Assembly (NCBI GenBank): GCA_035691485.1
Contig: DASSIZ010000074.1
Location: forward strand, 1 to 36,173
Source: Terriglobales bacterium
GTDB taxonomy: Bacteria; Acidobacteriota; Terriglobia; Terriglobales; Acidobacteriaceae
Length of the DNA: 36,173 nucleotides
Direction: 5' to 3'
The notes beneath the pieces were generated by a model that did no database searches, was not told the DNA's origin, and was given only the letters and a program-made list of their open reading frames with translations. Position numbers and translations under genes: made by a program. Each line of letters begins with the position of its first letter. Positions within the stretch are counted from its first letter, which is position 1. Of the stretch, positions 9,450 to 34,771 are shown piece after piece.

Positions 9450-10709
9450 TCAGGCTGATTTGGGCAGCTCGAGAATCGTAGCCGCCTGCGGGGCACGCGG
9501 ACGGTAACGAGCCAAAATCGGCAGCACCAGCGAGCAAATCAGGATGACGGCAATGATGTGGATCGCCGTGCCGTAGGAGCCGGTGTTCTGCCGCACATGC
9601 GCGATCAAGATCGGCGAAGGCACCGCGGCCGCGCCCCACGCCAGCAGGATCCAGCCGTAGATGCCACCCATGTACTTGGCGCCAAAGAAGTCGGCCGTGA
9701 AGGACGGCATGGTGCCGAAACCGCCGCCATAGCACAGGCCAATGACGGCAAACATCAGGCTGAACACGGTGATGTTGTGAACGCTGGTCAGGGCGAAGAA
9801 GATGATCGCCTGGATGGCATAGAGCATGAAGTAAACCGGAGCGCGGCCGATCAAGTCGGAGACCCAGGCCCAAAAGACGCGACCGGCGCCGTTGAAGATG
9901 GAGATCAAGCCCACCATGCCGGCGGCAGCCAGAGGCGACATGCCCACCAACTGCTGCGCCATCGGGGAGGCCTGGCTGATGATCATGATGCCCGCCGAGA
10001 CATTCAGGAACAGCATTGCCCAGAGCAGCCAGAATTGCCAAGTGCCCATGGCCTGGGTGACGGTGAAGTCGATCTTGGTAGCGGTTTTTTGCACTGCGGA
10101 GGTCGGGCTCCAGCCGGCCGGAACATAGCCCTGCGGCGGATTGGCATAGAACTGCCCCGCGGCGGTCACCAGGATCAGGTACACAATGCCGAAAATCCAG
10201 AATGTGGCGGGAACACCGCTGGTCTGGATCAGGCGCGCGGCGATGGGGCTGAAGATGAGCGCGCCCGCACCATAACCGGCTACGGCAACACCGGTCATCA
10301 GGCCGCGGCGATCGGGAAACCACTTCACCAACGTGGCAACGGGAGTGATATATCCCATGCCCATACCAATGCCGCTGATGACCCCATAGCCAAGATATAA
10401 GCCGGCAAGCGAGTGGCCTTTGGCGGCGAAGCCGGCGATCAAGTACCCGATTCCGTAAATCACGCCCGCCACGGTGGCCACGCGACGCGGACCGACGCGG
10501 TCCTGCCATAAACCGCCGATCACAGTGCCGACGCCAAGAAAAAGGATCGCCAGAGTGAATGTCAGCGATACCTGAGTGAGTTGCCAGTGTTCCTGGGCAA
10601 TGAGCGGCTTGACGAAAACGCTCCACCCATAAGCTGCGCCGAGACAGATCTGCATTACCACCGCGGCCACAGCAATGCCCCAACGATTGCGAAGTTTTTC
10701 CACAGCCAT
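9450..10709 (-). CDS. MFS transporter, oxalate/formate antiporter (OFA) family
   Basis: A 12-helix inner-membrane carrier, 419 residues. N-terminal WGIAVAAVVMQICLGAAYGWSVF and LATLGPRR-like loops (DRVGPRR, FPDRRGLMTG) are typical of OFA/OxlT-type carriers, as are GYGAGALIFSPI and SLMFAVIGLCYGGGFGTMPSF. The ATG at 10709 was chosen because AAGGGGGG lies about 10 bases upstream; a longer frame to 10901 lacks support and crosses the promoter region. It diverges from the formate dehydrogenase operon with a 191-bp spacer, so formate is a likely substrate. This is inferred from context, since the family also moves oxalate and other monocarboxylates. A strong terminator follows. Confidence 0.88.
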   Translation of the reverse strand: MAVEKLRNRWGIAVAAVVMQICLGAAYGWSVFVKPLIAQEHWQLTQVSLTFTLAILFLGVGTVIGGLWQDRVGPRRVATVAGVIYGIGYLIAGFAAKGHSLAGLYLGYGVISGIGMGMGYITPVATLVKWFPDRRGLMTGVAVAGYGAGALIFSPIAARLIQTSGVPATFWIFGIVYLILVTAAGQFYANPPQGYVPAGWSPTSAVQKTATKIDFTVTQAMGTWQFWLLWAMLFLNVSAGIMIISQASPMAQQLVGMSPLAAAGMVGLISIFNGAGRVFWAWVSDLIGRAPVYFMLYAIQAIIFFALTSVHNITVFSLMFAVIGLCYGGGFGTMPSFTADFFGAKYMGGIYGWILLAWGAAAVPSPILIAHVRQNTGSYGTAIHIIAVILICSLVLPILARYRPRAPQAATILELPKSA

Positions 10710-10774
10710 CGGTATGCTACCCCCCTTGCCAGCAGAGGACCTGCTTAGCTCTTGATACGATGCATTTTCTGAGC

Positions 10775-10801
10775 AGGTTGTTCGCTGCCGGCAGACAACC
10801 T
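10775..10801. promoter_or_regulatory. Inverted repeat in the transporter/FDH divergent spacer
   Basis: AGGTTGT (10775-10781) and ACAACCT (10795-10801) form 7-bp arms around a perfect 10-bp palindrome CTGCCGGCAG (10785-10794). It lies about 100 bases before the FDH start and 66 bases before the transporter start. It could be a shared operator; no regulator gene adjoins it. Confidence 0.4.
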
Positions 10802-10900
10802 TCGCGCTAGCCCACAACTCTAGAGAAATTGAAGGGCAAATAAAGCCGAGGGCGCCAGTCCTTGTGGGGCTTGATAGCAAGTTAAAGCCAGGGGTCATCA

Positions 10901-13900
10901 ATGTTAAAGGATTTACTCGAACGCTGGCCCGTCTATCGACAATTCAAAACAGGTGATAACGGAACAGGAAGCGCTGCCTACAGCGAAAAAACCAAGAAGC
11001 TGCTTCCGAAAACCGAGGGATGCGAGGTGGCGCGTTCGATCTGCCCCTATTGCGGGGTCGGATGCGGACAATTGATCTACCACAAAGACGGGAAAATGGT
11101 GGCGGTCGAAGGCGATCCTGTTTCGCCGGTGTCGCGCGGGCATCTTTGTCCGAAGGGCGCGGCCACGCTGCAGTTGCACACGCATCCCGGGCGGCTGAGG
11201 AAGGTGAAATATCGCCGGCCGTACTCGCGGGTGTGGGAAGAGCTGGAGCTGGAGACGGCGATGGACATGATCGCCGACCGGGTGTGGGAGTCGCGGCTGG
11301 AGACGTTCCAGGAAAAGCAGGACGGCGAAGCAGTCATGCACACGCTGGGGATAGCGCACCTGGGCGGGGCGACACTGGACAATGAAGAGAATTACCTGAT
11401 CAAGAAATTATTCGCGGCCGGCCTGGGGATGAATTGCATCAGCAACCAGGCCAGGATATGACACAGCTCGACGGTGCCCGGTCTGGGCACCTCGTTCGGT
11501 CGCGGCGGCGCAACCACGGCACAGCAAAGCCTGCACGAATCCGATGCCATCATGATCATGGGCTCCTCGATGGCGGAGCAGCACCCGGTGGGATTCCAGT
11601 GGGTAGTGGCAGCGCGGGAACGCGGCGCCAAGATCATCCATGTTGATCCGCGGTTCACGCGCACCTCGGCGATGTCCGACATCTGGGTGCCGCTGCGCGC
11701 CGGGAGCGACATTATTTACCTGGGCGCGATCATCAACTATGTCCTGCAGAACAACCGCTACTTCCACGATTACGTGGTCCATTACACCAACGCGCCTACC
11801 ATCATTCGCGAGGAGTTCAAAGACACGGAAGACCTGGGCGGAGTGTTCTCCGGCTTGCAAGTGGACAAGGACGGCCAGACGATCTACGACCCGAGCTCGT
11901 GGCTGTACCAGGGCACGAAGGCCAAGGAAGGTGAACCGACTGCGCACCATCCTGCCGCCGGCGGACACGCACTTCGTGGCGCGGCCGGCGGCGGTCACGG
12001 GAAGGATCGCGGAGGCGAAGCCGAGGAACCCTCTGAGCACCAGGAAGACGAGACGCTGCAGAATCCGCGCTGCGTGTTCCAGATCCTGAAACGGCACTTC
12101 TCGCGCTACACACCCGAAATGGTGGAGAAGTATTGCGGCGTACCGAAGGAAGTCTTCTTGAAAGCGACCGAAGCGTTCATCTCCGCGTCGGGACGCGACA
12201 AGACCGCCGCCATCTGCTACGCCGTGGGATGGACGCAGCACTCCAAGGGGGTGCAGATCATTCGCACGGCGGCGATCCTGCAAATGTTGCTGGGCAATAT
12301 TGGACGGCCGGGCGGCGGAATTCTCGCGCTGCGCGGGCATGCCTCGATCCAAGGCTCGACCGATATTCCGACGCTGTTCGACATTCTGCCCGGTTACCTG
12401 CCGATGCCGATGTTCGAGGCGGATGCGAACCGGCTCGCGGACTACATCAAGAAACACAAAGCCAATAAGGGATTGTGGTCGAACTTCGACGGGTACTTCG
12501 TCAGCCTGATGAAGGCGTACTACGGCGAGAAGGCCACAGCGGAAAACGACTGGGGCTTCAACTGGCTGCCACGCGTCACCGGCGACCATTCGCACTTCGG
12601 TTACTGGCTGGACATGGCGGACGGGAAGATGGAAGGGCTGTTCGTCATGGGACAAAACCCGGCGGTCGGCGCGTCGAATGGACGGCTGGAGCGCAAGGCG
12701 CTGTCGAAGCTGAAATGGCTGGTCGTGCGCGACCTGGTGGAGACGGAGACCGCGGCATTCTGGCTGGATTCACCCGAGGTGCAGCGGGGAGAGCTGAGCC
12801 CCGACAGCATCAAGACGGAAGTCTTTCTCATGCCTGCGTGCGGACAGGCGGAGAAGGACGGAACGTTCACCAATACGCAGCGCATGCTGCAGTATCACAA
12901 CAAGTCGGTGGATGGTCCGGGCGATTCGCGCAGCGAGACGTGGTTCATTTATCACCTGGGGCGGCGCCTGAAGGAGAAGGCGGCACGTGATCCACGGCCG
13001 ATGCACGAGCCGCTGCGGGCGCTGACCTGGGACTATTCGACCCACGGATCTCATCACGAACCTGACGCGGAAGAAGTCCTGATGGAGATCAACGGCTGGA
13101 CCACGGCCGATCGCAAGCAACTGCAGAAGCTCACGGAACTCAAGAACGACGGGTCAACCACCTGCGGCTGCTGGATTTATTGCGGCGTCATGCCCAGCCC
13201 AGATTTGAATCGCGCCAACCTGCGCGAACCCAAGGGCAAGCTCGGGCACGGCTGGGGATTCGCGTGGCCGAACGACTGCCGCATCATCTACAACCGCGCC
13301 TCGGCCGCTCCCGACGGCAAGCCGTGGAGCGAGCGCAAGAAGCTGGTGTGGTGGGACGACGCCAAGCAGGAATGGACCGGCGAGGACTCGCCCGACTTCG
13401 TCAAGAACATGCCGCCCGACCATAAAGGCAAAGGGAAAGAGGGCATGTGGGGGCTGGATGGCGATCAGCCGTTCACGCTGCATGGCGATGGCGTGGCCTG
13501 GATGTTTGTCTCGAGCGGTTTGAAGGACGGTCCGCTGCCCACGCATTACGAGCCGCTGGAATCGCTGTTGGAGAATCCGTTGTACCCGAAGCAGCAGGTG
13601 AATCCGACGGCAAAGAAAAAAGAGCGCAGCGACAATTCCTACGCCGTCTCGCCGGCTGATCCACGATTCCCGTACGTGCTGAGCACGTACCGGCTGACGG
13701 AGCACCATACGGCCGGCGGAATGAGCCGCACGCTCAGCCACCTGGCGGAGCTGCAGCCGGAGTTGTTCTGCGAGATCTCACCGGAGTTGGCAGGGGAACT
13801 GGACATCGAGCACGGGTCCTGGGTGACGGTAGTGACAGCGCGATCTCTGATATCGGCGCGAGCGCTGGTGACACCGCGGATTCGGCCGTTGTGGGTGAAC

Positions 13901-14119
13901 GGGCGCCGCATGCACCAGGTGGGACTGCCGTATCACTGGGGATGGAAGGGCGAAGTGAAGGGCGACATCACCAACGATCTACTCGTCATCTCGGAAGAGC
14001 CCAACGTACGCATCATGGAAACCAAGGCGCTGGTGTGCAACGTCGTGCCGGGACGGCACGCCGAAGGCAAAGCGGCGCTGGACCAGCTGAAATTTTATCT
14101 GCAAAGGCCGGCAGCATGA
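10901..14119 (+). CDS. fdnG: Selenocysteine-containing formate dehydrogenase, catalytic subunit
   Basis: Molybdenum/tungsten bis-MGD enzyme oxidising formate to CO2. Read through the in-frame TGA at 11459-11461 it gives 1072 residues. One [4Fe-4S] site is C48, C51, C55 and C83. The TGA is codon 187 in the context NQARI-U-HSSTVPGLG, the known active-site position of FdnG-type selenoproteins (Sec196 in E. coli FdnG). Downstream are MGSSMAEQHPVG and IHVDPRFTRTSA, the MGD-binding segments. There is no twin-arginine signal, and a stop codon just upstream excludes an N-terminal extension. Residues about 340-382 are a Gly/His/Glu-rich insert before the conserved LQNPRCVFQILKRHF. AGGGG precedes the ATG. 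It overlaps the next gene as ATGA. Gene callers would split it at 11461. Confidence 0.95.
11459..11500 (+). promoter_or_regulatory. Bacterial SECIS element for UGA recoding
   Basis: Eleven bases after the TGA, a perfect 7-bp stem GGTGCCC/GGGCACC (11473-11479 with 11485-11491) carries the 5-base loop GGTCT. E. coli fdhF has a stem-loop at the same distance with the same GGUCU loop bases, contacted by SelB. The element is also coding sequence (STVPGLGT). Confidence 0.88.
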
Positions 14120-14964
14120 GCCATCACCAGGTAGTACCGGAAGCGAAGCACGGGGAGCCGCAGACGACCGGGTTCTTCACCGATTCGACAGTATGCATCG
14201 GCTGCAAAGCCTGCGAGGTCGCGTGCAAGGAATGGAACGACGTTGCCGCCGACGGCTACAACTGGACGGGATTTTCCTATGACAACACGGGCGCGGTCGG
14301 ACACTCGACGTGGCGGCACGTGAAGTTTGTGGAGAACACGCCCACGCCGGGAGTCGGCGGAAACGCGTCGGACCAGATCACGTGGGAATTTTCCAGCGAC
14401 GTCTGCAAACATTGCGAAGTGGCAGGATGCCTGGAGGCGTGCCCGACGGGATCGCTGATCCGCACCGAGTTCGGGGGCGTGTACATGCAGCCCGACGTAT
14501 GCAATGGCTGCTCGTATTGCGTGGTGGCGTGCCCGTTCGGGGTGATCCAGAAGAACGAGGAGGACGGGCGGGCCTTCAAGTGTACCTTCTGCTATGACCG
14601 GCAAAAGGTTGGATTACAACCAGCTTGCGCAAAGGCGTGTCCGACCGAGTCCATCATGTTCGGGCCCCTGGATCAACTGCGGGTGCGGGCCCAGGAGCGA
14701 TTGGAACAGCTGCACGGCAACGGCATGACCGATGCCAATCTTTACGATCCGACCAACACAAGCGTGAAAGGTCTGCACGCGTTTTTCCTGGTGCGTGGAG
14801 ACCCGAGAGCTTACAACCTGCCGCCCAAGCCCGAGGTCCCGACGATTTACTTGAAGGAGGGATGGCGAGCCGCCGCCAAAGGCGCAGCCATGCTGTTAGC
14901 CGGGGCCACGCTGGCGTTCGCCGCCGGACGCAACGGCAGCAAGCGAAAGAGGAGCCGCCGATGA
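14116..14964 (+). CDS. fdnH: Formate dehydrogenase iron-sulfur (beta) subunit
   Basis: Electron-transfer subunit of 282 residues carrying four ferredoxin-type Cys clusters: CIGCKACEVACKEWN, CKHCEVAGCLEACP, CNGCSYCVVACP and CTFCYDRQ...CAKACP. This is the FdnH arrangement for four [4Fe-4S] centres. After the core, GLHAFFLVRGDPRAYNLPP leads to a C-terminal hydrophobic helix (about 255-273, AAKGAAMLLAGATLAFAAG) followed by a strongly basic end, KRKRSRR. By the positive-inside rule the tail is cytoplasmic. The ATG at 14116 overlaps the catalytic subunit's stop (ATGA), and its own stop overlaps the next start the same way. Confidence 0.93.
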   Translation: MSHHQVVPEAKHGEPQTTGFFTDSTVCIGCKACEVACKEWNDVAADGYNWTGFSYDNTGAVGHSTWRHVKFVENTPTPGVGGNASDQITWEFSSDVCKHCEVAGCLEACPTGSLIRTEFGGVYMQPDVCNGCSYCVVACPFGVIQKNEEDGRAFKCTFCYDRQKVGLQPACAKACPTESIMFGPLDQLRVRAQERLEQLHGNGMTDANLYDPTNTSVKGLHAFFLVRGDPRAYNLPPKPEVPTIYLKEGWRAAAKGAAMLLAGATLAFAAGRNGSKRKRSRR

Positions 14965-16049
14965 GCGCCGTAGTCCCCGAGTTTCCCGAGCGCATACCCG
15001 ACGAACAGAGTGAGGCGCGGCTCTATGAACTGCGCCGCGAAGCACAACAGCGAGGGCAGGTAAAAGCCCTTGGAATCCGACCGCCGGGAGCGCCATTCCC
15101 GCAAGCGTCGCCGGAGACCGGTTACTACGGCATCCCCGTGTTGAAGCAGCCGCAATGGACGTGGCAGGTACCGCTGTACTTTTTTGTCGGCGGCGCAGCG
15201 GGGTCGGCGGGAGTAATTGGCGCGGTGGCGGACTTGATCGGCGACGACTACGAACTTGCCCACCACGCCCGCTGGCTCGCGCTGGGCGGCGCGGTCGCAT
15301 CCTCGGGGTTGCTGGTGTGGGACCTGGGGCGCCCGAGCCGTTTCCTGAACATGCTGCGTGTTTTCAAGCCGCAGAGCGCGATGTCGATGGGGGCGTGGAT
15401 TCTGGCGGCGTTCGCCAATTTCAGTGCCGCAGCCAGTTTCGCCGACTTGCTCGAAGGGCGGTGGGGGAAGTCGATCCCGGTTTCCGTCATCGGAGGCATC
15501 GGACGGCTGGGCTCGTTAGCTTTTGGTCTTCCCTTCCACAACTATACCGGCGTACTGATCGGCGCGACCGCCGTGCCGCTGTGGAACCGCCACATCAAGG
15601 AACTGCCACAACACTTCGGGATGTCAGGGCTGCAATCGGCGGTCAGCATCCTGGAACTGATGGGGCACAGCGACAGCCGGGCGCTGAACTTGCTCGGGCT
15701 GCTGGCCGCGGGAATGGAAACGCGCGAAGGATTCCGCATCGAAACCGATTCCGACCGCGCGCTGGAGCCGTTGAAACGAGGCGCGAGCGGCTGGATCACG
15801 CGTGTCGGCGGAGTGCTCTCCGGACCGTTGCCGCTGGCGTTGCGACTGGCGGGCTGGCGCTCGCCAACGCTGCGGCGCTGGGCCGCCGTTTCTGGAATTG
15901 CGGGCTCGCTGCTGACACGTTATGGATGGATGGGGGCGGGGCACGCGTCGGCGTCGAACTGGCGCCTGCCGCTGGAGATTGCCGAGAGCGGAGGAGAAGT
16001 GGAGCAGTTTCCCAAGCGCGCGCCGGAAAAACTTCGCGATACCGCGTGA
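14961..16049 (+). CDS. NrfD/PsrC-type membrane subunit of formate dehydrogenase
   Basis: Multi-helix membrane quinone-reactive subunit, 362 residues. After a roughly 70-residue soluble N-terminus (with GYYGIPVLKQPQWTWQVPLYFF), helices follow in the NrfD pattern: FVGGAAGSAGVIGAVADLIG, ARWLALGGAVASSGLLVWDLGRPSRFLNMLRVFK and MSMGAWILAAFANF. The motif LGRP is typical of the family. Later helices include TGVLIGATAVPLW. It replaces the cytochrome b subunit FdnI of E. coli, so electrons probably go to menaquinone without haem. It is translationally coupled to fdnH (ATGA at 14961). Heptamer array f follows its stop. Confidence 0.9.
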   Translation: MSAVVPEFPERIPDEQSEARLYELRREAQQRGQVKALGIRPPGAPFPQASPETGYYGIPVLKQPQWTWQVPLYFFVGGAAGSAGVIGAVADLIGDDYELAHHARWLALGGAVASSGLLVWDLGRPSRFLNMLRVFKPQSAMSMGAWILAAFANFSAAASFADLLEGRWGKSIPVSVIGGIGRLGSLAFGLPFHNYTGVLIGATAVPLWNRHIKELPQHFGMSGLQSAVSILELMGHSDSRALNLLGLLAAGMETREGFRIETDSDRALEPLKRGASGWITRVGGVLSGPLPLALRLAGWRSPTLRRWAAVSGIAGSLLTRYGWMGAGHASASNWRLPLEIAESGGEVEQFPKRAPEKLRDTA

Positions 16050-24310: not shown

Positions 24311-26524
24311 CTATTTTTTGAAGGCGACATTGACCAGGAGCTTTTCGCCTTCCACGTCCACGACATTGCAGAAGGTGCGGGCGCCGCGGCGGGAGAAGTC
24401 GAGTCCGACCCGGCTCTGACCGATGCGGAGGTTGCGAACCTGGAGGTACTCAAGCCAGTCGGGGAGTTCCGGGTTGACGATGTTGAGTTCCTTTCTGTGC
24501 GCGCTGGGGCGGATGCCGAGGACGGAGTTCAGCATCAGGAACATGGCGCCGGAGGCCCATGCCTGCGGCGAGCAGGAAACCGGGTAGTGGACAGGATCGT
24601 CGTGTTCGCGACGTTGCACGCCACAGAAAAGCTCGGGAAGGCGGTAGTCGCGGAAGCGAAGGGCCGCCTGGAAAAGGGTGGTGAAGACACGGAGAGCGGG
24701 CTCGCGGAATTCGTTGAGCGCCATGCCGTGAACGATGAGCGAGTTATCGTGCGGCCAAACGGAGCCGCGATGATAGCTGAGCGGATTGAAGATTCGCTCC
24801 TCGGCGGACATGGTGCGGAGTCCCCAACCGGAGAAAAGGTCATCGCGCATAAAGCGGTTGACGACAGCGCGGGCGCGTTCCTTGCCGATGATGCGGTTCC
24901 AAAGCAGGTGGCCGGGATTGGATGCGATGACCTGGAGCGGCTTTTTTTCGCCGTCGAGCGCCATGGCATAAAAGCCGCGAGAGGGCATCCAGAAAGCCTT
25001 CTCCACGCGCTTGGCGAGTTCGGAGGCTTCGCGCCGGAGGCGTTCGGCATTGACGGTGTCGCCGAAGGCGCGCAACAGCGACGCCATGCGGTACTTGGCG
25101 TCATAGACGTAGCCCTGCACTTCCACGAGCGCGATCGGCGGGCGCGCCACCGTGCCATCGCGATGCATGTTGGCGTCCCAGGAATCTTTCCAGCCCTGGT
25201 TGGCGAGGCCGCGGGAGGAGTGGCGGATGTACTCGACGAAGCCGTCGCCGTCGAAATCGCCGTAGTTGGCAATCCATTCCAGGGCGCGATAGGCGGCGGG
25301 AAGCAGGTCGCGAACCAGCTTCTCGTCGGCTGTCCAGTTGAAAGTCTCGCTGAGCAGGATGAGGAACAGGGGGGTGGCGTCAATGGAACCGTAGTAGGGC
25401 CCGAAAGGCATTTCGCCGTTGCGGGTCATCTCGCCGGTGCGGTACTCGTGGAGGATCTTGCCGGGCTGCTCGTCGCGCCAGTCATTCACTTCGCGGCCCT
25501 GGTAATGCGCGAGGGTGCGCAGGGTTTCGACGGCAAGCTGCGGGTTGAGCGAGAGCGACTGGTAGGCGGCGATGATGGAATCGCGCCCGAACATGGTGGC
25601 GAACCAGGGAATGCCGGCGGCGACGACGTGCTGGTCACCGTCAGGAATCTGGAGGGCATGGAAGTCGCCGATGGCGGTGCGCAGGGCGGAGTCGAAGACG
25701 TCGTTGCTGCTGTGGAAATTGGTGGACCGGCTTTCCCAGGCGGCGAAGGCGTCGCGGCGGGCGCGCAGGCTGGCGGCCTGGTCGGAATTGCCGGCGCGGC
25801 TCTTCGCACCCTGCACGAAGGGCGTAACGCTGGCGGTAACCTGGATCTGGCGCAGCGGCGGCAGGTTAATCTCCCAGCGCGCCACCTCATCCTCGATCTG
25901 CGCCGGCTGCGGGGCAAAATCAATCTGGGTCTGGCGCATCACGCCATCGAGACCGCGATAGAAGAATGCCAGCGTGCGGTCGCGGACCACCGGCTTGTAG
26001 TACTGGCCGTGCACGGAGCGGGCGGAGCCGCGCACCTGGAAGACATCCACGAAGTCAGCATCGTAATGGATCTCGAGCACGAAGCTGACGGGCACGAGAT
26101 TGAAGTTCTCGAAGGTCAAGCGGTCGAAAAAGGTGTCAGAGGCGAGGAGTTGTTCGCGACGGATATGAATGGTGTTTTCGGGAAGATCAAAGGACTCGCG
26201 CAAGGCAATGTTGCCGGTCGTGAGCTCAACCTGGTTGGCAAACGTCTTCTCGGTGTTGGAAGAGAGCACGACAGCGCGATTGCCCATGACCCGCAGTTCC
26301 ATGTTGCTGAGGAAGCGGGTGTCGTCATGGAAAAAACCGACATCGGGCGCGCCCGCGGGCGAAATATCGCCGGCAACGGTTGTAGAGAGGAAAGTCTTGC
26401 CGTCAATCAAGGTCAGGTTGTTGACCTTGCGCGGTTCCAGCGCCTGGAACGCAATGCGCGGTTCGACGTGAGGTGAAGAAATCTCCACCAGCACGTCGTC
26501 AGGAATGGAGAGGCGCGTACTCAT
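24311..26524 (-). CDS. Glycogen-debranching-type amylo-alpha-1,6-glucosidase
   Basis: A 737-residue protein with two parts. An N-terminal beta-rich domain (about 25-240, with KTFLSTTVAGDISP and GFFHDDTRFLSNMELRV) is the GDE N-terminal type. A C-terminal (alpha/alpha)6 barrel (about 265-715) contains GIPWFATMFGRDSI, GWKDSWDA, VEVQGYVYDAKYRMA and SVWPHDNSLIVHG, typical of the GDE/trehalase-like clan. It would remove alpha-1,6-linked branches or act on a related alpha-glucan. It has no signal peptide. It overlaps the GT4 gene by 4 bp (ATGA), so the two are translationally coupled and probably act on the same glucan. Confidence 0.92.
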   Translation of the reverse strand: MSTRLSIPDDVLVEISSPHVEPRIAFQALEPRKVNNLTLIDGKTFLSTTVAGDISPAGAPDVGFFHDDTRFLSNMELRVMGNRAVVLSSNTEKTFANQVELTTGNIALRESFDLPENTIHIRREQLLASDTFFDRLTFENFNLVPVSFVLEIHYDADFVDVFQVRGSARSVHGQYYKPVVRDRTLAFFYRGLDGVMRQTQIDFAPQPAQIEDEVARWEINLPPLRQIQVTASVTPFVQGAKSRAGNSDQAASLRARRDAFAAWESRSTNFHSSNDVFDSALRTAIGDFHALQIPDGDQHVVAAGIPWFATMFGRDSIIAAYQSLSLNPQLAVETLRTLAHYQGREVNDWRDEQPGKILHEYRTGEMTRNGEMPFGPYYGSIDATPLFLILLSETFNWTADEKLVRDLLPAAYRALEWIANYGDFDGDGFVEYIRHSSRGLANQGWKDSWDANMHRDGTVARPPIALVEVQGYVYDAKYRMASLLRAFGDTVNAERLRREASELAKRVEKAFWMPSRGFYAMALDGEKKPLQVIASNPGHLLWNRIIGKERARAVVNRFMRDDLFSGWGLRTMSAEERIFNPLSYHRGSVWPHDNSLIVHGMALNEFREPALRVFTTLFQAALRFRDYRLPELFCGVQRREHDDPVHYPVSCSPQAWASGAMFLMLNSVLGIRPSAHRKELNIVNPELPDWLEYLQVRNLRIGQSRVGLDFSRRGARTFCNVVDVEGEKLLVNVAFKK

Positions 26525-27585
26525 GCAATAGCGCGTTGAGGAATTTTTTTCTCCAGGGCTACGGGAACGCCGGCCAGGGCCCGCTCATAGACGTCGGCGT
26601 ACTGCTGAACCATGCGCTCGATGGAAAACTCCCGCTCAGCATAAGCCCGGACCTGCACCGCATCAAAATCGGGGGCGCGGCGAGCGTATTTCGCCATTTC
26701 TTCGACATTGCGACCAACGAAACCGGAGATCTCATGCTTCACGATCTCGGGCACCGAACCCCCGGGCATGGCGATCACTGGGGTGCCGCAAGCCATGGCC
26801 TCGATCATGACAAGGCCGAAGGGCTCGTCCCATTGAATGGGAAAGAGCATGGCCGTGGCATTGCCGAGAAGCTCGTTCTTAGCTTCCAGGTCAGCCTCTC
26901 CGATGTACTGGATGAAGTCGCCGTCGAGGTGGGGCTTCACCTCGGCATCGAAATACGATTGATTTATGGGCTGGATCTCGCCGGCAATCTTGAGCGGAAT
27001 CCCGGCCCGCTTTGCGATTTGGATGGCGAGGTGAGTGCCTTTGACGGGGGCAATGCGTCCGATGAAGGCAAGGTAAGGCTGCTTTTCGGTCACGAGCCGA
27101 TATTTCGAGAAGTCCAGGCCGTGGTGAATCGTGCTGATGCGCGGCATAGTCTCGCGGAAGCGCTGAAAGTCGCTGATGGTGACATAGGTGACATCAGGAT
27201 AGTAGCCGTAAAAGTTGCTGAGCGCAGGTTCCTGGGGATGATGGATGGTATAGACGAACGGAGTGGAAACAAAACGCGAATAAACCAGGCCGGGAGCGTT
27301 ATTGAGATGGAGCAGGTCGCAGTTGGCATGGGCGTCCGCAATCGCCCACGCACTGTGATTGAAGTCCTTCAGACTGCCGTGGACCTCTCCCTGGATTGGC
27401 CACTCGGAGGTGGGATACAGCGACTTGAGCGCAACGGGGACAGTGGATTCGCCATTGGCGTAGACAACGACATCGTGCCCAAGCTGCTTGAGTCCGACGG
27501 CGAGATGGGCAATGAAAAGTTCCGTACCGCCGTAAACGGTAGGCGGAACGGAGATAAACGGTGGTGCAACGAGAGCAATACGCAT
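26521..27585 (-). CDS. Family 4 glycosyltransferase (GT-B)
   Basis: A 354-residue retaining GT-B enzyme. The N-terminus MRIALVAPPFISVPPTVYGGTE is the acceptor-side loop typical of GT4. LAFIGRIAPVKGTHLAIQIAK starts the nucleotide-sugar domain, and FPIQWDEPFGLVMIEAMACGTPVIAMPGG is the Glu-x7-Glu region. The ATG at 27585 is where similarity starts; upstream codons to 27642 look non-coding. It is coupled to the debranching-type gene downstream, a pairing that suggests synthesis or remodelling of an alpha-linked glycan. The 154-bp upstream spacer (27586-27739) may hold its own promoter. Confidence 0.9.
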   Translation of the reverse strand: MRIALVAPPFISVPPTVYGGTELFIAHLAVGLKQLGHDVVVYANGESTVPVALKSLYPTSEWPIQGEVHGSLKDFNHSAWAIADAHANCDLLHLNNAPGLVYSRFVSTPFVYTIHHPQEPALSNFYGYYPDVTYVTISDFQRFRETMPRISTIHHGLDFSKYRLVTEKQPYLAFIGRIAPVKGTHLAIQIAKRAGIPLKIAGEIQPINQSYFDAEVKPHLDGDFIQYIGEADLEAKNELLGNATAMLFPIQWDEPFGLVMIEAMACGTPVIAMPGGSVPEIVKHEISGFVGRNVEEMAKYARRAPDFDAVQVRAYAEREFSIERMVQQYADVYERALAGVPVALEKKIPQRAIA

Positions 27586-27739
27586 GGGTCCTCGGAACGC
27601 GAGATAGCGTGGAACTGTCGAGCGCGCGCTCAACACTTCCACAGCGTGTTTTTAAAACGAGCCAGCGACCAGCAAGTCAGGTAGGGCTTTCCTATTTAGA
27701 GATGCGCGGGCGAGGAGAAACGTTGGCGCGGTCCGGCGC

Positions 27740-28855
27740 TTAGACGGCATTGGCCGGAAAATCGATGAGGAAATCTTCGGCGGCGGATTTCGCTGTGGAT
27801 TCCAGGGCATTTTCAAATTCGATGGCGCGGCGATGATTGGTGTGGTCAGCAAGAACCCGCTCCTGGGCGGAACTTCCGATGGAGCGGAGTTCCTGCTCGC
27901 TGAGGTCGGTGAGATAGCGCGCAACATCCTCGGCGCAGGTGGGAAGAAGAATTTCCTGCTGGGGACGGAAAAAGGTGTCGAGACCGGGCCAATTGTCGGA
28001 AGCGATGGCGGCGCCGCTGGCGGCCGCTTCAAACAGACGCACCGACGGCGAGTAGCCGGCGCGGACCATGTCACGACGGGTAACGTTCAAGGTCAAGCGG
28101 GAGGAGGAATAGAAACGGCTGTGCCAGCGCGGGTTTAGATGCATGATGCGGCGGACATTGTCAGGCCAGCGGATGATTTTGGGATATTGCGGGCCGGCCA
28201 GGATGAAACTGCGATCCGGGAGCAGGCGCGCGGGAGAGCAGAAGAACTCCTCGATCTTCGGCTGGCGATCGGGAGCGTAGGTGCCCATGTAACTGAGGTC
28301 GCAAGCGAAACGCTTGTTCACCGAAAACCGGCGGTAATGCAGGGGGTCAAACGAACAGTAGAGTGGAACCGCGAGACGGGCGCCGAAACGATTCTCAATT
28401 TCCTTCAAGATGGGTCCGCCGGTGAAGCTGAAATAGACGTCGAAGCCGGGGATCTGATCTTTGAGCAGGTAGTCGGCGCGGCCGTGCTCGCGCAATTGCG
28501 CAACGGTAATTGGGGTATCGATGTCGTAGAAGGCCTTGTGCGGCGCGGGCGAGTCGAGAACCTCGTCAATGGCGGCAATGCCGTCAGGAAAATAGGAGCC
28601 TACGATGGCGGCGTCGCAATCGCGGAGTTCGGCGCGGGCGAAGGGGAGTACGTCGTTCCAGCGGTCAAAGATGCGGACCTGACAGAAATCGGGCTCGGGC
28701 AGATCGCGGTTGTTGGCGTACCACTCGGTATCGTGCTCGAAGAAGACAATGCGGTGACCGCGAGCGTGCAGGGCTTTGCACAGCGCGCGGAAGGTGGTCG
28801 CGTGACCGTTGCCCCAGGAAGACGTAATGGAGAGGCCAAAAATAACGATCTTCAT
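27740..28855 (-). CDS. CgeB-like glycosyltransferase 1
   Basis: A 371-residue GT-B fold protein. MKIVIFGLSITSSWGNGHATTFRALCKALHARGH begins the N-domain. SYMGTYAPDRQPKIEEFF and the C-terminal SPSVRLFEAAASGAAIASDNWPGLDTFF match the CgeB/glycosyl transferase 1 C-terminal type. CgeB is named from B. subtilis spore crust glycosylation, but the family is broad and the substrate here is unknown. It is a paralogue of the next gene upstream. The 35-bp gap between them is filled by heptamer array j. Confidence 0.87.
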   Translation of the reverse strand: MKIVIFGLSITSSWGNGHATTFRALCKALHARGHRIVFFEHDTEWYANNRDLPEPDFCQVRIFDRWNDVLPFARAELRDCDAAIVGSYFPDGIAAIDEVLDSPAPHKAFYDIDTPITVAQLREHGRADYLLKDQIPGFDVYFSFTGGPILKEIENRFGARLAVPLYCSFDPLHYRRFSVNKRFACDLSYMGTYAPDRQPKIEEFFCSPARLLPDRSFILAGPQYPKIIRWPDNVRRIMHLNPRWHSRFYSSSRLTLNVTRRDMVRAGYSPSVRLFEAAASGAAIASDNWPGLDTFFRPQQEILLPTCAEDVARYLTDLSEQELRSIGSSAQERVLADHTNHRRAIEFENALESTAKSAAEDFLIDFPANAV

Positions 28856-28859
28856 AAAA

Positions 28860-28894
28860 CAGTTTCCGGTTTCCAGTTTCCAGTATTCAGTTAG
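28860..28894 (-). repeat. Heptamer array j filling a gene gap
   Basis: Five 7-bp units: CAGTTTC at 28860 and 28874, CGGTTTC at 28867, CAGTATT at 28881, CAGTTAG at 28888. The last unit contains the stop codon (28891-28893) of the upstream paralogue, and the array ends 4 bases from the ATG of CgeB-like 1. Confidence 0.8.
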
Positions 28895-29979
28895 CTTGCC
28901 TTTGCCATTTCAGTGATGCGTGAGGCTGCCAAAATGGTGTCCACCTGCCGCGCACGCAGCGCGTAGGAATGATCACGCAGCGCGCGAAGGCGCATGGCCC
29001 CACCGATTTCGCGCGCATCGTCTTCGCTCAAAGTCCGCAACCAGCGGACAACGCCCTCGGCCGAAGGGGCGACCAGAATCTCGCGGCGAAGATCGAAGAA
29101 GTGATCAATGCCGGGCCAGCTATCGGTAATGACGCAAGCGCCCGCGCCGGCCGCCTCAAAGATGCGGGTCGGCGGCGAGAAACCGACATTGGCCATGGAA
29201 TCCCGGTTGATGTTGAGCACCATGCGCGCTGAACCATTGATGCGGTTGTGATCTCCGGTGGCGACGTGTCCGATCCAACGCACGTTGTCCGGCAGCGGCT
29301 TCCCTTGCCAGCCTTCACCGCCCAGGATGAACTTGAGGTCGGGAGCGAGTTCGGCGGCGCGCAGGAAGAAATCTTCGACACGCCGCTCGCGATCCGGCAA
29401 GCGATGTCCGACGAACGCCAGGTCGCAGGCGAGCGCTGGATCCGGTGCGACGGGATGGTGCGTCTCGGGGTCGAGCCCGTTGTAAATCGGGTGGCAGTTG
29501 CGCGCCCGCAGGTTGAGATAGTGATCGACCACGGGCGGCCCGCCGCCATAGGTGAAGATGAAGTCGTAGGCGGGGATTAGAGGGCGGAAGGGATCGCCGG
29601 GATTTTCCTCGACGCGAGCCAAAGTGGCGGGGGCATCGACGTCCCAAAAAGCGACTTGGGTCGAGGCAGATTGCAGATCGAGAACCGCGCGCTCCAGGAA
29701 TTCATCATCGGCGCCGACGCCGCTGTGCTTGACGACGAGATCAGCGTCGGAGGCCTGAGCGAGCATGCGCTCAAGTTCGGACGGGGTCTGGTAAACGCGG
29801 ATGCTAGCGTAATCAATGTCGCCGGCATCGCGCTTCCGCTGGCGGCCATAGATATCGGGTTCGGCAAAGGTAATGTCGTGCCCGAGCGCGTGCAGGTTCT
29901 TGTAGATGCCGCGGTAATAAGTGGCGGCGCCATTCCAATAAGAAGAAGTGAGGCTGGAGCCGAAGATGAACAGTTTCAT
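28891..29979 (-). CDS. CgeB-like glycosyltransferase 2
   Basis: A 362-residue paralogue of the preceding gene, sharing MKxFIFGxSLTSS at the N-terminus, AFVGHRLPDRERRVEDFFLRA in the middle and PPTRIFEAAGAGACVITDSWPGIDHFF at the C-terminus. This is the CgeB-type nucleotide-sugar domain. Tandem paralogues usually add successive or alternative residues to one glycan. The acceptor is unknown. The gene is preceded by a 147-bp gap with REP-like repeats, so a separate transcript is possible. Confidence 0.87.
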   Translation of the reverse strand: MKLFIFGSSLTSSYWNGAATYYRGIYKNLHALGHDITFAEPDIYGRQRKRDAGDIDYASIRVYQTPSELERMLAQASDADLVVKHSGVGADDEFLERAVLDLQSASTQVAFWDVDAPATLARVEENPGDPFRPLIPAYDFIFTYGGGPPVVDHYLNLRARNCHPIYNGLDPETHHPVAPDPALACDLAFVGHRLPDRERRVEDFFLRAAELAPDLKFILGGEGWQGKPLPDNVRWIGHVATGDHNRINGSARMVLNINRDSMANVGFSPPTRIFEAAGAGACVITDSWPGIDHFFDLRREILVAPSAEGVVRWLRTLSEDDAREIGGAMRLRALRDHSYALRARQVDTILAASRITEMAKAS

Positions 29980-30008
29980 AAGTGCAGTTCAGGAAACCGA
30001 GATGCCTC

Positions 30009-30112
30009 GGGGCTAAAGCCCCTCGGAATGACAATCAGACAATTGGTTTCGGCACAGCTGAAGCCGTGCCCTTCCCCGCAAAGAGTTCGTTCGGCACGGC
30101 TGAAGCCGTGCC
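30009..30112. repeat. Three tandem REP-like hairpins
   Basis: GGGGCT-AA-AGCCCC lies at 30009-30022. GGCACAGCT-GA-AGCCGTGCC lies at 30051-30070. The perfect 9-bp stem GGCACGGCT-GA-AGCCGTGCC lies at 30093-30112. The last two share flanks ending CCCTTCCC. Together they fill the 147-bp gap between two glycosyltransferase genes. Confidence 0.75.
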
Positions 30113-30126
30113 CTTCCCAAAGCGTG

Positions 30127-31260
30127 TCACCGAAGTGGTCCCTCTCTGCCCAATTCATCGATTATGTCCAGGAGCTGTTCTGCACGAAGAGCGCAAGTAT
30201 GGCGGCGGCGAATGGTTTGCAGGCCGTTGTCGGCAATTTGGCGGCGAGCCCCCTCGTCGCGCAGAAGGTGCTCAATTTCAGCGACCATGGCACGGGTGTC
30301 GGCAACGCAAACGTAATCTTCCCCGGGACGAAAGAGGCCCTCGGCATCGATCCATGGCGAGCACAACAAGGCCGCGCCGCAGGCCAGGGCCTCAAAGACG
30401 CGGATGGTGGGGATGCCGCTCAGGCCGTTGGTGTACTGGCGGCGTGGGACGTGCAAGGTCAACCGGCTGCGGCCATAGACCGCGGGCGTGCTGAGATTGG
30501 GGACGTAGCCGCGGAAGTCGATGCCGGCATTCGCCAGGTTGCGGCGGGCGGCGTCGGGATAACGAACGCCGTGGACCACGAAACTGCGGTGCCGGAGCTG
30601 GAGGGCGGGTTCGACGAGGAATTCCTGCAGTTCCCGGGTGCGCTCCTCGTCGCCCCAATTGCCGATCCAGACCAGGTCATCGCGTTTTTCCAGCGGCAGG
30701 GGCCTGAAGGTGTCAACGTCAGCGGCCTCGTGAAACGTCCAGCCGCGGGACACGCCGAAGCCTTCCACGTAAATGCGGCGGATGGCTTCGCCGAAAGCGA
30801 GCACCCCGTCAAAAAGATCGAGGCGGAATTTAAGGATCTCGGCGGCGCTGGTATAGGCGCGGTGGTGAGTGTCGTGCAACAGCGCGCGAAAACCGAGGCT
30901 CTGCTTGAGTCCGAGAATGGTGTTGACGACGATGGGATCGGTCCACTCGTGGATGATGACGACATCGGCGTTGCGCAAGTGAGATTGCGCGAACTCAGCG
31001 AATTGGGCGTCATTGTTGAAGAATTGAATGTTGAGATCGGGATAGACACGGCGAAACTCATCGATCGAACTGATGGCAAGCTCGCCTTCCTGGCGAACCA
31101 GGTTGGACAGGGACCAGGAACCCAACGGCTCATAACAGGTCACGCGATGGCCCATGCGGATCAACTGGCGCGCCAGCCCGCGGAGAAAGTGGGCATTGCC
31201 GTGGTTCCAGTCGGAAACCCAGGAATGCGCGAAAAAATGAATGTTCAGCGACTGACTCAT
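30127..31260 (-). CDS. CgeB-like glycosyltransferase 3 (GT-B)
   Basis: A 377-residue GT-B protein more distant from the two CgeB-like genes downstream. LNIHFFAHSWVSDWNHGNAHFLRGLARQL forms the N-domain. LVWIGNWGDEERTRELQEFLV opens the C-domain, and IPTIRVFEALACGAALLCSPWIDAEGLF is the donor-binding region. It overlaps the GT4 gene upstream by 4 bp (ATGA), so they are coupled. Donor and acceptor are unknown. Confidence 0.85.
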   Translation of the reverse strand: MSQSLNIHFFAHSWVSDWNHGNAHFLRGLARQLIRMGHRVTCYEPLGSWSLSNLVRQEGELAISSIDEFRRVYPDLNIQFFNNDAQFAEFAQSHLRNADVVIIHEWTDPIVVNTILGLKQSLGFRALLHDTHHRAYTSAAEILKFRLDLFDGVLAFGEAIRRIYVEGFGVSRGWTFHEAADVDTFRPLPLEKRDDLVWIGNWGDEERTRELQEFLVEPALQLRHRSFVVHGVRYPDAARRNLANAGIDFRGYVPNLSTPAVYGRSRLTLHVPRRQYTNGLSGIPTIRVFEALACGAALLCSPWIDAEGLFRPGEDYVCVADTRAMVAEIEHLLRDEGARRQIADNGLQTIRRRHTCALRAEQLLDIIDELGREGPLR

Positions 31261-32366
31261 GCGACGGCTGCTCCAGTCGGTACCAGGGATTCGTACAGAT
31301 TCATGTAGTCGTCGACCATGCGCTCGGCGGTATAGCGCTGGCGGGCGCGGTGATACGCAAGATTGGCGTAGGTGAGCCGCAGCTCGCGATCGCTTTGCAG
31401 GCGTGCGATGGCGCGCGCGAGATCGGCGGCGTCGTTATAACGGAAGTAGCAGGCGGCATCGCCCCAGATTTCATGGAACGTGGGAATATCGTTGGCGATG
31501 ATGGCGCAACGGGAGAAGGCGGCCTCCAGGGGCGCGAGTCCGAACGGCTCGTAGCGGGAGGTGGCGGCGTACATGGAAGCGCGGCTGTAGAGATGTGAAA
31601 GCCGGTTTTCGGACTGCTCGCCCGTGAACTGCATGCGGCGGCGCGCAGGAAACGCGGGACGCGCTCCCCGCAGGACTTCGTCGGGATGCTTGTCGGAGCC
31701 GGCGATGAGCACGGGAGCCTTTTGCTCGCACTGGCTGAGCAGCGTGACCTGCTTTGCCGAATCCCACAGACGTCCGACCGAGAGGACGAGGTCATCCTTT
31801 GTGCCGTGGGGGTTGAAGAGGCCGGGATTGCGGCCGTTGTAAACCACCGTGCCCTGCGCCGGGCGGACATAGTACGCGCCCACAGCGTCCAGCATCCAGC
31901 GCGACGGGGCAACGACGGCGGTGGCGCCGGCAACGCCGCGAGTAACAACATCGCGGTACCAGCGTAGCCACCTGGTATGGCGGGGCTCCTCGCCGTGCAC
32001 GCTGACCCACCAGCTGAGCACGTCACTGTGGGCGGCAACCACGCGGGGGATGTCGAGCGGGAGCGCGCCGTAGCAGAACTGGTTGAAGTGGACGAGGTCG
32101 GGCGCCGCATCGCGAATCACGGAGAGCAAAAACTCGGACGAGCTGTCCAGGTCCTGCTCGGCTTCCTGCATCCATTCCAGGCGAAACGCGGTGGGGCGGA
32201 AGTCGAGGCCGCGCAGGCCTTCCATCCAGGCGCATTGCTCGGCGGTGGGAATTTCGCCGAGGCTGACGAGGGTGACACGCACGCCCCGGCGCGCCAGACC
32301 GGTCACTAACTCACGAGCGTAAGTCCAGACTCCACCGAGCGTATCGGCGGTGACTAGCAGGTGCAT
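31257..32366 (-). CDS. Family 4 glycosyltransferase (GT-B)
   Basis: A 369-residue retaining GT. The N-terminal MHLLVTADTLGGVWTYARELVTGL has the Gly-rich acceptor loop. VLSVGRLWDSAKQVTLLSQ opens the donor domain, and YAATSRYEPFGLAPLEAAFSRCAIIANDIPTFHE carries the EPFGLxPLEA motif. It overlaps the radical SAM gene upstream by 13 bp and the CgeB-like gene downstream by 4 bp, a tight operon. Confidence 0.9.
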   Translation of the reverse strand: MHLLVTADTLGGVWTYARELVTGLARRGVRVTLVSLGEIPTAEQCAWMEGLRGLDFRPTAFRLEWMQEAEQDLDSSSEFLLSVIRDAAPDLVHFNQFCYGALPLDIPRVVAAHSDVLSWWVSVHGEEPRHTRWLRWYRDVVTRGVAGATAVVAPSRWMLDAVGAYYVRPAQGTVVYNGRNPGLFNPHGTKDDLVLSVGRLWDSAKQVTLLSQCEQKAPVLIAGSDKHPDEVLRGARPAFPARRRMQFTGEQSENRLSHLYSRASMYAATSRYEPFGLAPLEAAFSRCAIIANDIPTFHEIWGDAACYFRYNDAADLARAIARLQSDRELRLTYANLAYHRARQRYTAERMVDDYMNLYESLVPTGAAVA

Positions 32367-33640
32367 TCCAGATCCTCAATCGACGCCGGCTTCTGTTCCT
32401 GGATGTCGCTGAAGCCTTTCGCGGAGAACGCGGAGGTGTAGTAATGGTGCGCGCGTTCCCAGGCCTGGTCGTCGGGCGGGCCAAACATTTGCGCGTACAG
32501 CGGCGTGCCCGGAAACGGAAACATGGGCACGGGCTCACTGACCCAGACGCCTTGCGACTTCAGGTGCTCCTGCCAGCGGCGGATCTCGTTCTTGTCGTCG
32601 TGCTCGGTCAGAATGAGGTTGGCCTGCACCCACGGGATGCGCTGCCGCGCGTAGACCAGCAGTTCGGTCAAGCGTTCCGTGCTCATGCGGCAGCCCTTGT
32701 TCAGTTGATCGCGGCCGTGGTCGGTAATCGACTCGATGCCACACTCCATGGAGATGCAGTGGGCGCGGCCGAGCAGGTCCAGGCTATCCTCGTCCCAAAG
32801 ATCAATCCTACTCTGAAAACCGATGCTGAGTTCCCGCTCCGCGATGCCTTCCAGCAACGTGCGCACGTTCTTTCCGACGCCAAAAATCTCGTCGATGAAG
32901 TAAACGTAGTCCACGCCGCGGGCGATCAGGCGGTCGATTTCGAGCAGGACCTGGTCCACGTCGCGTTCGCGGAACTTATTGCGGAATAATGTCTTATTGC
33001 AGAAATTGCAGGACCATGGGCAGCCGCGCGCGAATTCGAGCTCGGCGCCGCACCCTTCCCCGGAGAAAACGTGGTGGCGGTGGCGGTGCTGCGCGACGTC
33101 GTAGTCATGAAAGTCAAGCGCCCGCAGCGCCTTCATGTCCGCGACCCCAAGGGTGGGAGAAAAATGGTCTCCGTGATCATCGCGCCAGCAGCAGCCGTCA
33201 ATGGTTTGCCACGGTTGCGAGGCAAGTTGCGACAAGGTGATGTCGATTTCGCCGCGCATGCCAACCTGCACGTCCATTTTGCGCATGGCGGGAAGCGGGG
33301 TGGCGGAGGTGTGGGGTCCAACGGCGACCTTAACGGCTTTACTGCCAAGAGCGGCGAACCACTCCTTCGGAACACGAACTTCCGGGGGCGGACAGCGCCA
33401 GAACAGATACGAAGGCGCGGTCGGGATAACGAGGAAATCGGGAGCGAAGGCGTCGATGCGGCGCCTGGTTTCGGTGGTGTTCAGAATGTCCGCCTGGGCG
33501 TCAACCAACAAAGGCTCGTGTCCGGCTTGGCGAATCTGGTCGGCGGCGAAGAGCAACTCGAGCGGATAGTGCGGATCGCGGCAGCCAAAATAAGTGGAGC
33601 CTGTGAAGTCCCAGTTGGGATTGACAAGGGCAAACTTCAT
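32354..33640 (-). CDS. B12-binding-type radical SAM protein
   Basis: A 428-residue protein. An N-terminal Rossmann-like domain (about 1-130, DPHYPLELLFAADQIRQAGH) resembles the cobalamin-binding domain of class B radical SAM enzymes, though no DxHxxG motif is visible. The radical SAM core follows with CPWSCNFC (C207, C211, C214), the CxxxCxxC for the [4Fe-4S] cluster. An odd His-rich run (AQHRHRHHVFSG, about 183-194) lies before the core. Such enzymes often methylate or rearrange unactivated carbons. Its place between epimerases and glycosyltransferases suggests modification of a sugar or lipid carrier. The start overlaps the epimerase stop (ATGA). Confidence 0.88.
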   Translation of the reverse strand: MKFALVNPNWDFTGSTYFGCRDPHYPLELLFAADQIRQAGHEPLLVDAQADILNTTETRRRIDAFAPDFLVIPTAPSYLFWRCPPPEVRVPKEWFAALGSKAVKVAVGPHTSATPLPAMRKMDVQVGMRGEIDITLSQLASQPWQTIDGCCWRDDHGDHFSPTLGVADMKALRALDFHDYDVAQHRHRHHVFSGEGCGAELEFARGCPWSCNFCNKTLFRNKFRERDVDQVLLEIDRLIARGVDYVYFIDEIFGVGKNVRTLLEGIAERELSIGFQSRIDLWDEDSLDLLGRAHCISMECGIESITDHGRDQLNKGCRMSTERLTELLVYARQRIPWVQANLILTEHDDKNEIRRWQEHLKSQGVWVSEPVPMFPFPGTPLYAQMFGPPDDQAWERAHHYYTSAFSAKGFSDIQEQKPASIEDLECTC

Positions 33641-34737
33641 GCCGCCCCCGGAAGTTCCAGCAGGTTGGCGGCGGCGCGCTCCGGCTGCTCGGCCGGCTGG
33701 AACAGGTCGCGATTGCGCTTCCACCAGTTAAAGACGCTCTGCAAAGTCTGACGTACGCTCAAGCGCGGCTCCCAGCCGGTATCGCGGTGGAGCTTGCCGC
33801 AATCGGTGACGTAGATGAGCTGGTCGCCGGGACGGCGCTCGGCGGTTTCGTATTCGACGCGCGTGCCGGTGATGTCCGCGATGAGTGCCATCAGTTCCAG
33901 CAAAGAAATGGTGTTCGCCGGCCCGCCGCCCACGTTGTAGATTTGCCCGGCCGTGAGAGGCAGGTTGTCGCGAACCGCATCGAAGGCGCGGACGAGATCA
34001 TCGACGGACAGCACATCGCGGACCTGGCGTCCGTCACCGTAGATGGTCAATGGAATTCCTTGCAATGCCGAGTACAGGAAATGCGCGACCCAGCCCTGGT
34101 TTTCAGTGCCAAACTGGCGCGCGCCGGCAATGCACGACATGCGGAAAACGACGGTCGGAATGCCGTAGATGCGGGAGTAGTCGCGAACGTACTGGTCGGC
34201 GGCGCCCTTGGAGCAGCCGTACGGGGAGTGGAAATCGAGCGGCTCCGCTTCGGAAATGCCCTGGGAGTTCCGGTAGGCGTAGCGCGTGGCCTGGCGAACG
34301 ACCTGGCGCGAGGCCATTTCGCCGTACACCTTGTTGGTGGAGGTGAAAAGCATGAAAGGACGCCGACCGTGCTTGCGCGCCGCTTCCAGCACGTTGAAGG
34401 TGCCCAGCAGGTTGACGTCGAAGTCGAGGCGGGGATCGCTAACCGAGGTGGTGACCGCAACCTGCGCGGCGCAATGATAGATCTCGGTGGCGTAACGGAC
34501 GACGCGATCGACCATGGCGGCATCGCGAACGTCGCCGATGGTGATCTGCAGGCGCCCGGAATTCCCGGCCGCTTTTTGCAAGGCGTGCAGGTTGTTGCGC
34601 ACACCGGGGCGAGAGAGGTTGTCGAAGATTTGTACTTTCGCGTCTGTCGTCTCGAGCAGCTTATGGGCCAGATTCGACCCGATGAAGCCGGCCCCCCCGA
34701 AGATGACGACAGATCGGAAACGATCTGTTTTCTTCAT
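33637..34737 (-). CDS. NAD-dependent epimerase, CDP-paratose 2-epimerase (RfbE)-like
   Basis: A 366-residue extended SDR enzyme for sugar nucleotides. FGGAGFIGSNLAHKLL binds NAD, STNKVYG and YGCSK provide the Ser/Tyr/Lys triad, and QFGTENQGWVAHFLYSAL with YGDGRQVRDVLSVDDLV closely resembles CDP-tyvelose/paratose 2-epimerases. The substrate assignment is by similarity to that subfamily only. ATG at 34737 is preferred, with AAAGAGA just upstream; an in-frame ATG at 34752 would add five residues. It is coupled to the radical SAM gene and lies 34 bp after the next epimerase. Confidence 0.88.
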   Translation of the reverse strand: MKKTDRFRSVVIFGGAGFIGSNLAHKLLETTDAKVQIFDNLSRPGVRNNLHALQKAAGNSGRLQITIGDVRDAAMVDRVVRYATEIYHCAAQVAVTTSVSDPRLDFDVNLLGTFNVLEAARKHGRRPFMLFTSTNKVYGEMASRQVVRQATRYAYRNSQGISEAEPLDFHSPYGCSKGAADQYVRDYSRIYGIPTVVFRMSCIAGARQFGTENQGWVAHFLYSALQGIPLTIYGDGRQVRDVLSVDDLVRAFDAVRDNLPLTAGQIYNVGGGPANTISLLELMALIADITGTRVEYETAERRPGDQLIYVTDCGKLHRDTGWEPRLSVRQTLQSVFNWWKRNRDLFQPAEQPERAAANLLELPGAA

Positions 34738-34771
34738 GGCCGTCTCTTTCATTCCAATTGTTCGCAGCCTC

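Follow-up and report, generated by a model that had tools for sequence, protein, structure and literature searches.

The window, the whole stretch of 36,173 nucleotides analysed here, comes from a Terriglobales bacterium (Acidobacteriota) and carries at positions 10901-16049 what is almost certainly a three-gene operon for a selenocysteine-containing formate dehydrogenase (FDH). The first gene, fdhA (10901..14119, forward strand), encodes the Mo/W-bisPGD formate dehydrogenase alpha subunit with selenocysteine (Sec) at residue 187. Its assignment rests on the read-through translation, the models NF041513 (formate_DH_Act; 1582.2 bits, cut-off 1400, residues 6-1066) and TIGR01553 (919.7 bits, cut-off 814.2), Pfam molybdopterin domains and an alignment with E. 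coli FDH-N (1kqf); the FDH models span almost the whole alpha protein. The second gene, fdhB (14116..14964, forward strand), overlaps fdhA in an ATGA and encodes an iron-sulfur subunit with Fer4 domains, whose score against the FDH-beta model TIGR01582 (188.8 bits) lies far under the cut-off of 334.7. The third (14961..16049, forward strand) overlaps fdhB in another ATGA and encodes an NrfD-type membrane subunit (PF03916, 45.6 bits, cut-off 25.8); NrfD also adjoins FDH in loci L055 and L071. A hydropathy scan with a crude threshold marks one stretch in the NrfD-type subunit, fewer than a membrane subunit would lead one to expect, and none in FdhB.

Divergent from the operon on the reverse strand, a predicted frame at 9450..10901 encodes an MFS transporter of the L-lactate / oxalate-formate type (NF049980, 445.7 bits, cut-off 320; TIGR00890, 256 bits, under its cut-off of 374.85), which may be tied to the FDH. 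Acetogenesis was considered and rejected, FTHFS not being found in the genome. Further along the window, the reverse strand at 26521-36070 holds five glycosyltransferase-like frames, a radical SAM protein and two sugar-nucleotide epimerase/dehydratases, probably for the synthesis of a cell-surface polysaccharide.

The in-frame TGA and the downstream hairpin

From its ATG start, the frame 10901-14119 contains only two in-frame stops, the TGA at 11459-11461 and the terminal TGA at 14117. The list of open reading frames contains 10901-11461 (186 aa) and 11474-14119 (881 aa, GTG start), exactly the pieces into which an earlier note on this DNA had expected the gene to be split, and the single in-frame TGA through which that note joined them is the only internal stop. 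With the TGA read as Sec, the frame yields a protein of 1072 aa with Sec at residue 187, in the context NQARI-U-HSSTVPGLGTSFGRGG. Third-position GC is 0.73 on one side of the TGA and 0.80 on the other. In the alignment, residue 187 pairs with the X (Sec) of 1kqf, and the four Cys of the 4Fe-4S cluster and the RGH motif are matched in the fdhA product, which bears out the earlier placement of the residue at the known Sec site of FDHs and marks it as the predicted Mo/W ligand. Between the two conserved halves of the alpha subunit, residues 340-378 (about 11918-12034 in the window) form a His/Gly-rich insertion that varies in length and sequence among relatives.

Codon 187 is TGA in 51 of the 52 alignable genes, window included, which are not 52 independent cases because about a dozen of the named loci are near-identical enterobacterial sequences. 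The residue was mapped in 54 loci, comprising the best 30 (with the window gene), 23 named loci and the genome's own paralogue; L066 and L073 gave no alignment over the Sec site and were left out. Among the genes with TGA is one on a complete chromosome, L060. The one exception, with TGC (Cys), is L069 (5001-6011), an Acidimicrobiaceae FDH fragment in which GGC CTC also replace the loop codons. The fragment fills 30% of the alignment columns and is nested among Sec sequences (support 99/94), a probable Sec-to-Cys change.

Eleven nucleotides past the TGA lies the SECIS hairpin (11473..11491, forward strand), in which a 7-bp stem of GGTGCCC (11473-11479) and GGGCACC (11485-11491) encloses a GGTCT loop. 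The perfect hairpin with a GGUCU apical loop described earlier is thus confirmed to the base. Neither strand of the window has a second perfect 7-bp stem closed by GGTCT, and base composition predicts about 0.004 such hairpins. The folding energy of the 66-nt stretch is no better than that of shuffled sequences (z -0.34; 68 of 200 shuffles equally good), so the evidence for the hairpin lies in its position, loop, covariation and codon choice and not in its energy.

Covariation was assessed over 15 close Sec homologues (the window, L022-L026, L031, L043, L051-L056 and L071). Paired cells make up 92.4% of the 105 stem cells against 82.7% after shuffling, two-sided changes occupy 9 cells in three of the seven pairs against 3.8, and the covariation score is 0.223 where shuffles average 0.073; none of 500 shuffles is as high on any of these, in a comparison that sequence relatedness inflates. 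Two weaker measures separate less, namely the number of pairs with two-sided changes, 3 versus 1.9 and reached in 26 of 500 shuffles, and that of further pair types, 5 versus 4.6 and reached in 262 of 500. Four of the seven pairs are invariant, and the outermost is unpaired in 7 of the 15 sequences. Slid registers, which keep the relatedness, reach at most a score of 0.057 and 52.4% pairing; a shift by +3 gives as many pairs with two-sided changes as the structure itself and does at least as well on both weak measures. Twelve sequences encode Gly in the loop, all of them by GGT, and the remaining three encode Ser (AGT). Within the frames concerned, some of which overrun the gene, the share of GGT among Gly codons is 8-28%, giving a product of about 5e-11 with kinship ignored; the Cys homologue L069 has GGC at this codon.

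At the gathering threshold, no Rfam family matched in the window. Searched at a limit of E 10, the stretch around the Sec site gives four matches, the best to SECIS_3 (RF01989; 11456-11514, 38.4 bits, E 1e-7) and the other three at E 0.47 to 3.2. The SECIS_3 model is aligned end to end over UGA and hairpin with its UGA placed on TGA 11459, yet its gathering score of 63 is not reached. As controls, an enterobacterial locus (L058) scores 84.3 bits and the genome's own paralogue (L074) 68.9 bits, over gathering, while the relatives L071, L053 and L051 score 31.9, 29.3 and 25.6 bits and L069 stays unmatched at a limit of E 0.5. Judged by its position, the covariation, the loop codons and the SECIS_3 match, the hairpin downstream of the TGA appears to be under selection as RNA.

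Selenocysteine machinery and related enzymes

The genome (G000; 3,836,507 bases in 145 contigs, completeness 98.54, contamination 2.6) contains the full set of sel genes. It encodes selB on contig C50 (373.6 bits, cut-off 242.25), a tRNA-Sec (selC) on C141 (69 bits, gathering score 47; SeC with anticodon TCA by ARAGORN), and selA (445.2 bits) and selD (361.1 bits) on C13. The earlier note had proposed to look for these four genes and to take a complete genome lacking selB and a Sec tRNA as the sign of a broken gene; since all four are present, that refutation fails. The selD match itself spans one in-frame TGA. The gene lies on the reverse strand (L018, G000:C13:71051-75007), with the TGA near the N-terminus in the frame ..KAAG-U-ASKLSP.. 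and a stem-loop 13 nt past it, whose folding energy is matched by 42 of 200 shuffles (z -0.79). SelD is thus likely a selenoprotein, as judged from its frame. Downstream of selD on the same strand lies a frame that, by eye, we take to be rhodanese-like. On contig C20 (L074 / L090), a second FDH has the Sec codon at the homologous place, and the genome likely holds at least three Sec genes: fdhA, this second FDH and selD. In Corynebacterium pollutisoli (L053), a tRNA-Sec at 11384-11474 (74.6 bits) and the end of the Sec-FDH match are about 3 kb apart.

In a maximum-likelihood tree of 32 proteins, rooted at the midpoint with rows chosen by the author from the loci examined, the window gene falls in a clade of 16 (100/100) from Acidobacteriota and Actinomycetota, separate from an FdnG-like clade that includes the genome's own paralogue. 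Among named relatives of fdhA, those in Acidobacteria gp1 metagenome genomes come nearest, with 69-73% identity. Motif inspection of the window reveals no Tat signal on the alpha subunit: no RR motif precedes the first Cys motif, and upstream there is no in-frame room. RR before the first Cys motif is likewise absent in 10 of 15 clade rows. Five rows (L024, L043, L052, L054 and L056) have RR in an open frame ahead of that motif, where gene starts are not known, and by eye no Tat-like hydrophobic run follows it. The FDH of L025 (G376, same class) groups with actinobacterial sequences (100/99, midpoint root), a placement that hints at horizontal transfer.

Actinobacterial Sec-FDHs (NF041513) have the same Sec site and hairpin as the window, and in Micromonospora (L071) an NrfD gene likewise adjoins the FDH; four long actinobacterial homologues are 51-55% identical to the acidobacterial protein and the fragment L069 59%. 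By analogy, FDH1 of Actinomycetospora chiangmaiensis is likely the experimental counterpart of the window FDH. The available part of the report on that organism (PMC7176365) describes FdhA1 as a protein of 1078 aa in a membrane-bound FDH1 system, deduces three Sec-FDH systems, finds formate removal to be selenite-dependent, records FDH1-system proteins, SelA and SelB as detected at low abundance, and lists FdhD in the organism. FDH1 is tabulated there with selA and selB, whereas the sel genes of the present genome lie on C13, C50 and C141.

Among solved structures, 1kqf is by sequence the best relative of fdhA. Compared with E. coli FDH-N and FDH-O (FdnGHI, FdoGHI), however, no Tat signal is seen in the window enzyme, an NrfD-type subunit stands in place of the cytochrome b556 gamma subunit, FdhB misses the FDH-beta cut-off and the enterobacterial sequences form a separate clade. 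The earlier designation of the enzyme as FdnG-type therefore holds for the aligned Sec site, but the protein is not FdnG proper. The genome's second Sec-FDH, in contrast to the window alpha, has a Tat-like SRRDFLK signal; its beta (TIGR01582) and cytochrome-b gamma (TIGR01583) subunits score over their cut-offs, and an FdhE-like gene accompanies it, under the TIGR01562 cut-off.

The available part of a survey of bacterial selenoproteins (PMC1794560) records FdhA in 67 of the 75 organisms that use Sec, and for Acidobacteria four selenoproteins in three families. For peatland Acidobacteria, the accessible text of PMC6018796 describes a periplasmic membrane-bound FDH and an uncharacterised cytoplasmic monomeric FDH, and this text has no word starting with selen. 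The window Sec-FDH is ordinary in kind, because Sec-FDHs are among the commonest bacterial selenoproteins and acidobacterial selenoproteins are already known. It is a well-supported addition to an already known Sec-FDH type and not FDH-N proper.

Distribution of FdhD

According to the available parts of PMC6239281 and PMC10609526, FdhD is essential for E. coli FDH activity. Its absence from some FDH organisms is a caveat already published, as far as the accessible text goes. In the present genome, a search for FdhD (PF02634) gives no match even with the limit relaxed to E 10; among 14 control genomes, the model finds matches in 8 under the stricter limit of E 0.001. Across a phylum sample of 396 genomes, 40 have an FDH match and 28 of these have FdhD, divided as 1 of 8 in the window's family versus 27 of 32 elsewhere (Fisher p 0.0003, from genomes that are not independent).

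A family draw of 398 genomes shows FDH in 141 (TIGR01553, E up to 1e-100), in 130 of the 398 over cut-off, and FdhD in 87; the FDH and FdhD draws are taken as the same genomes, in agreement with their size and handles. Both occur together in 26, and the other 61 FdhD genomes have no such FDH at that E-value. FdhD was thus not detected in 115 of the 141 FDH-bearing genomes, nor in 39 of the 51 that are at least 98% complete, with at most six first-look candidates scored per genome (six of six in G000), draft genomes missing genes and the 141 not all checked for Sec. Where present, fdhD can lie close to the enzyme: it directly adjoins a window-type FDH in two genomes of family f26 (G042, G286) and lies within about 3 kb of FDH in five of the window's own family (G403, G506, G581, G633, G665).

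A degenerate FdhD was sought and rejected, with none in G000 at E up to 10 and weak scraps of at most 14.2 bits in G073, G121 and G257. Among the frames listed at nine FdnG-like FDH loci (L090-L096 of the family, L098-L099 outside), no neighbour gene stands out as an FdhD substitute. Alpha, beta, gamma and FdhE-like frames are common to all nine, and further frames are common to up to three loci, for example one of 170 aa (L090, L091, L095) and one of 451 aa (L091, L092, L099); for seven of the twelve loci the FDH neighbours were relisted under a 150-aa filter and a requirement for sharing by three loci. It is quite possible, if somewhat less than probable, that the Sec-FDHs of the family mature without FdhD, either with a different protein supplying the sulfido ligand of the Mo/W cofactor or with that step being dispensable.

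Proposed mechanism and alternative readings

The UGA, the hairpin with its covariation, the sel genes, the operon and the homology are read from the sequence, and from them we infer Sec incorporation, catalysis, orientation, quinone coupling and the metal as follows. In E. coli FDH genes, SelB is recruited by a hairpin in the coding sequence downstream of the UGA. Similarly, the hairpin that lies inside the coding sequence 11 nt past UGA 11459 would bring in SelB loaded with Sec-tRNA(Sec) to read this codon during translation. Sec187 would ligate Mo or W, and formate would be oxidized to CO2. The electrons would then pass from the 4Fe-4S cluster of the alpha subunit through the FdhB clusters to the NrfD-type subunit and on to the quinone pool. 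Because no Tat signal is seen on alpha, the active site would most likely lie on the cytoplasmic side, in contrast to that of the second Sec-FDH, with its Tat-like signal and cytochrome-b gamma subunit.

Three other readings of the locus have to be weighed. Translation with table 11 yields two ORFs, as a pseudogene or a sequencing error with a true stop between two fragments would give. This reading is extremely improbable and was rejected on the conservation of the TGA, which occupies the same codon in nearly all mapped genes, the complete chromosome L060 included, and on the stem covariation; the full sel gene set and the similar third-position GC on both sides also speak against it. It is very improbable, too, that the UGA is recoded by near-cognate read-through or as Trp or Cys. 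One homologue does have Cys at the site (L069, TGC), but the Sec machinery, the match to SECIS_3 and the Sec of 1kqf all agree, and UGA is not reassigned in general, because alpha itself ends on a TGA at 14117.

A further reading accepts Sec insertion and holds the enzyme to be inactive or marginal without FdhD, the operon being a relic in the family. The lack of any FdhD match in the genome and in most FDH-bearing genomes of the family favours it. A relic would be expected to decay, however, whereas the relatives examined retain both the TGA and the stem, and the genome maintains two Sec-FDH operons together with its sel genes; the relic reading is therefore unlikely, and a functional selenocysteine-containing FDH remains the preferred interpretation.

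In conclusion, annotation without a Sec model would split not only fdhA but also selD and the second FDH. The organism would be an acidobacterium with two Sec-FDHs, one of cytoplasmic type with an NrfD subunit and the other bearing a Tat signal. What merits follow-up in the finding is the FdhD gap, and cultured relatives could make the FdhD question testable.
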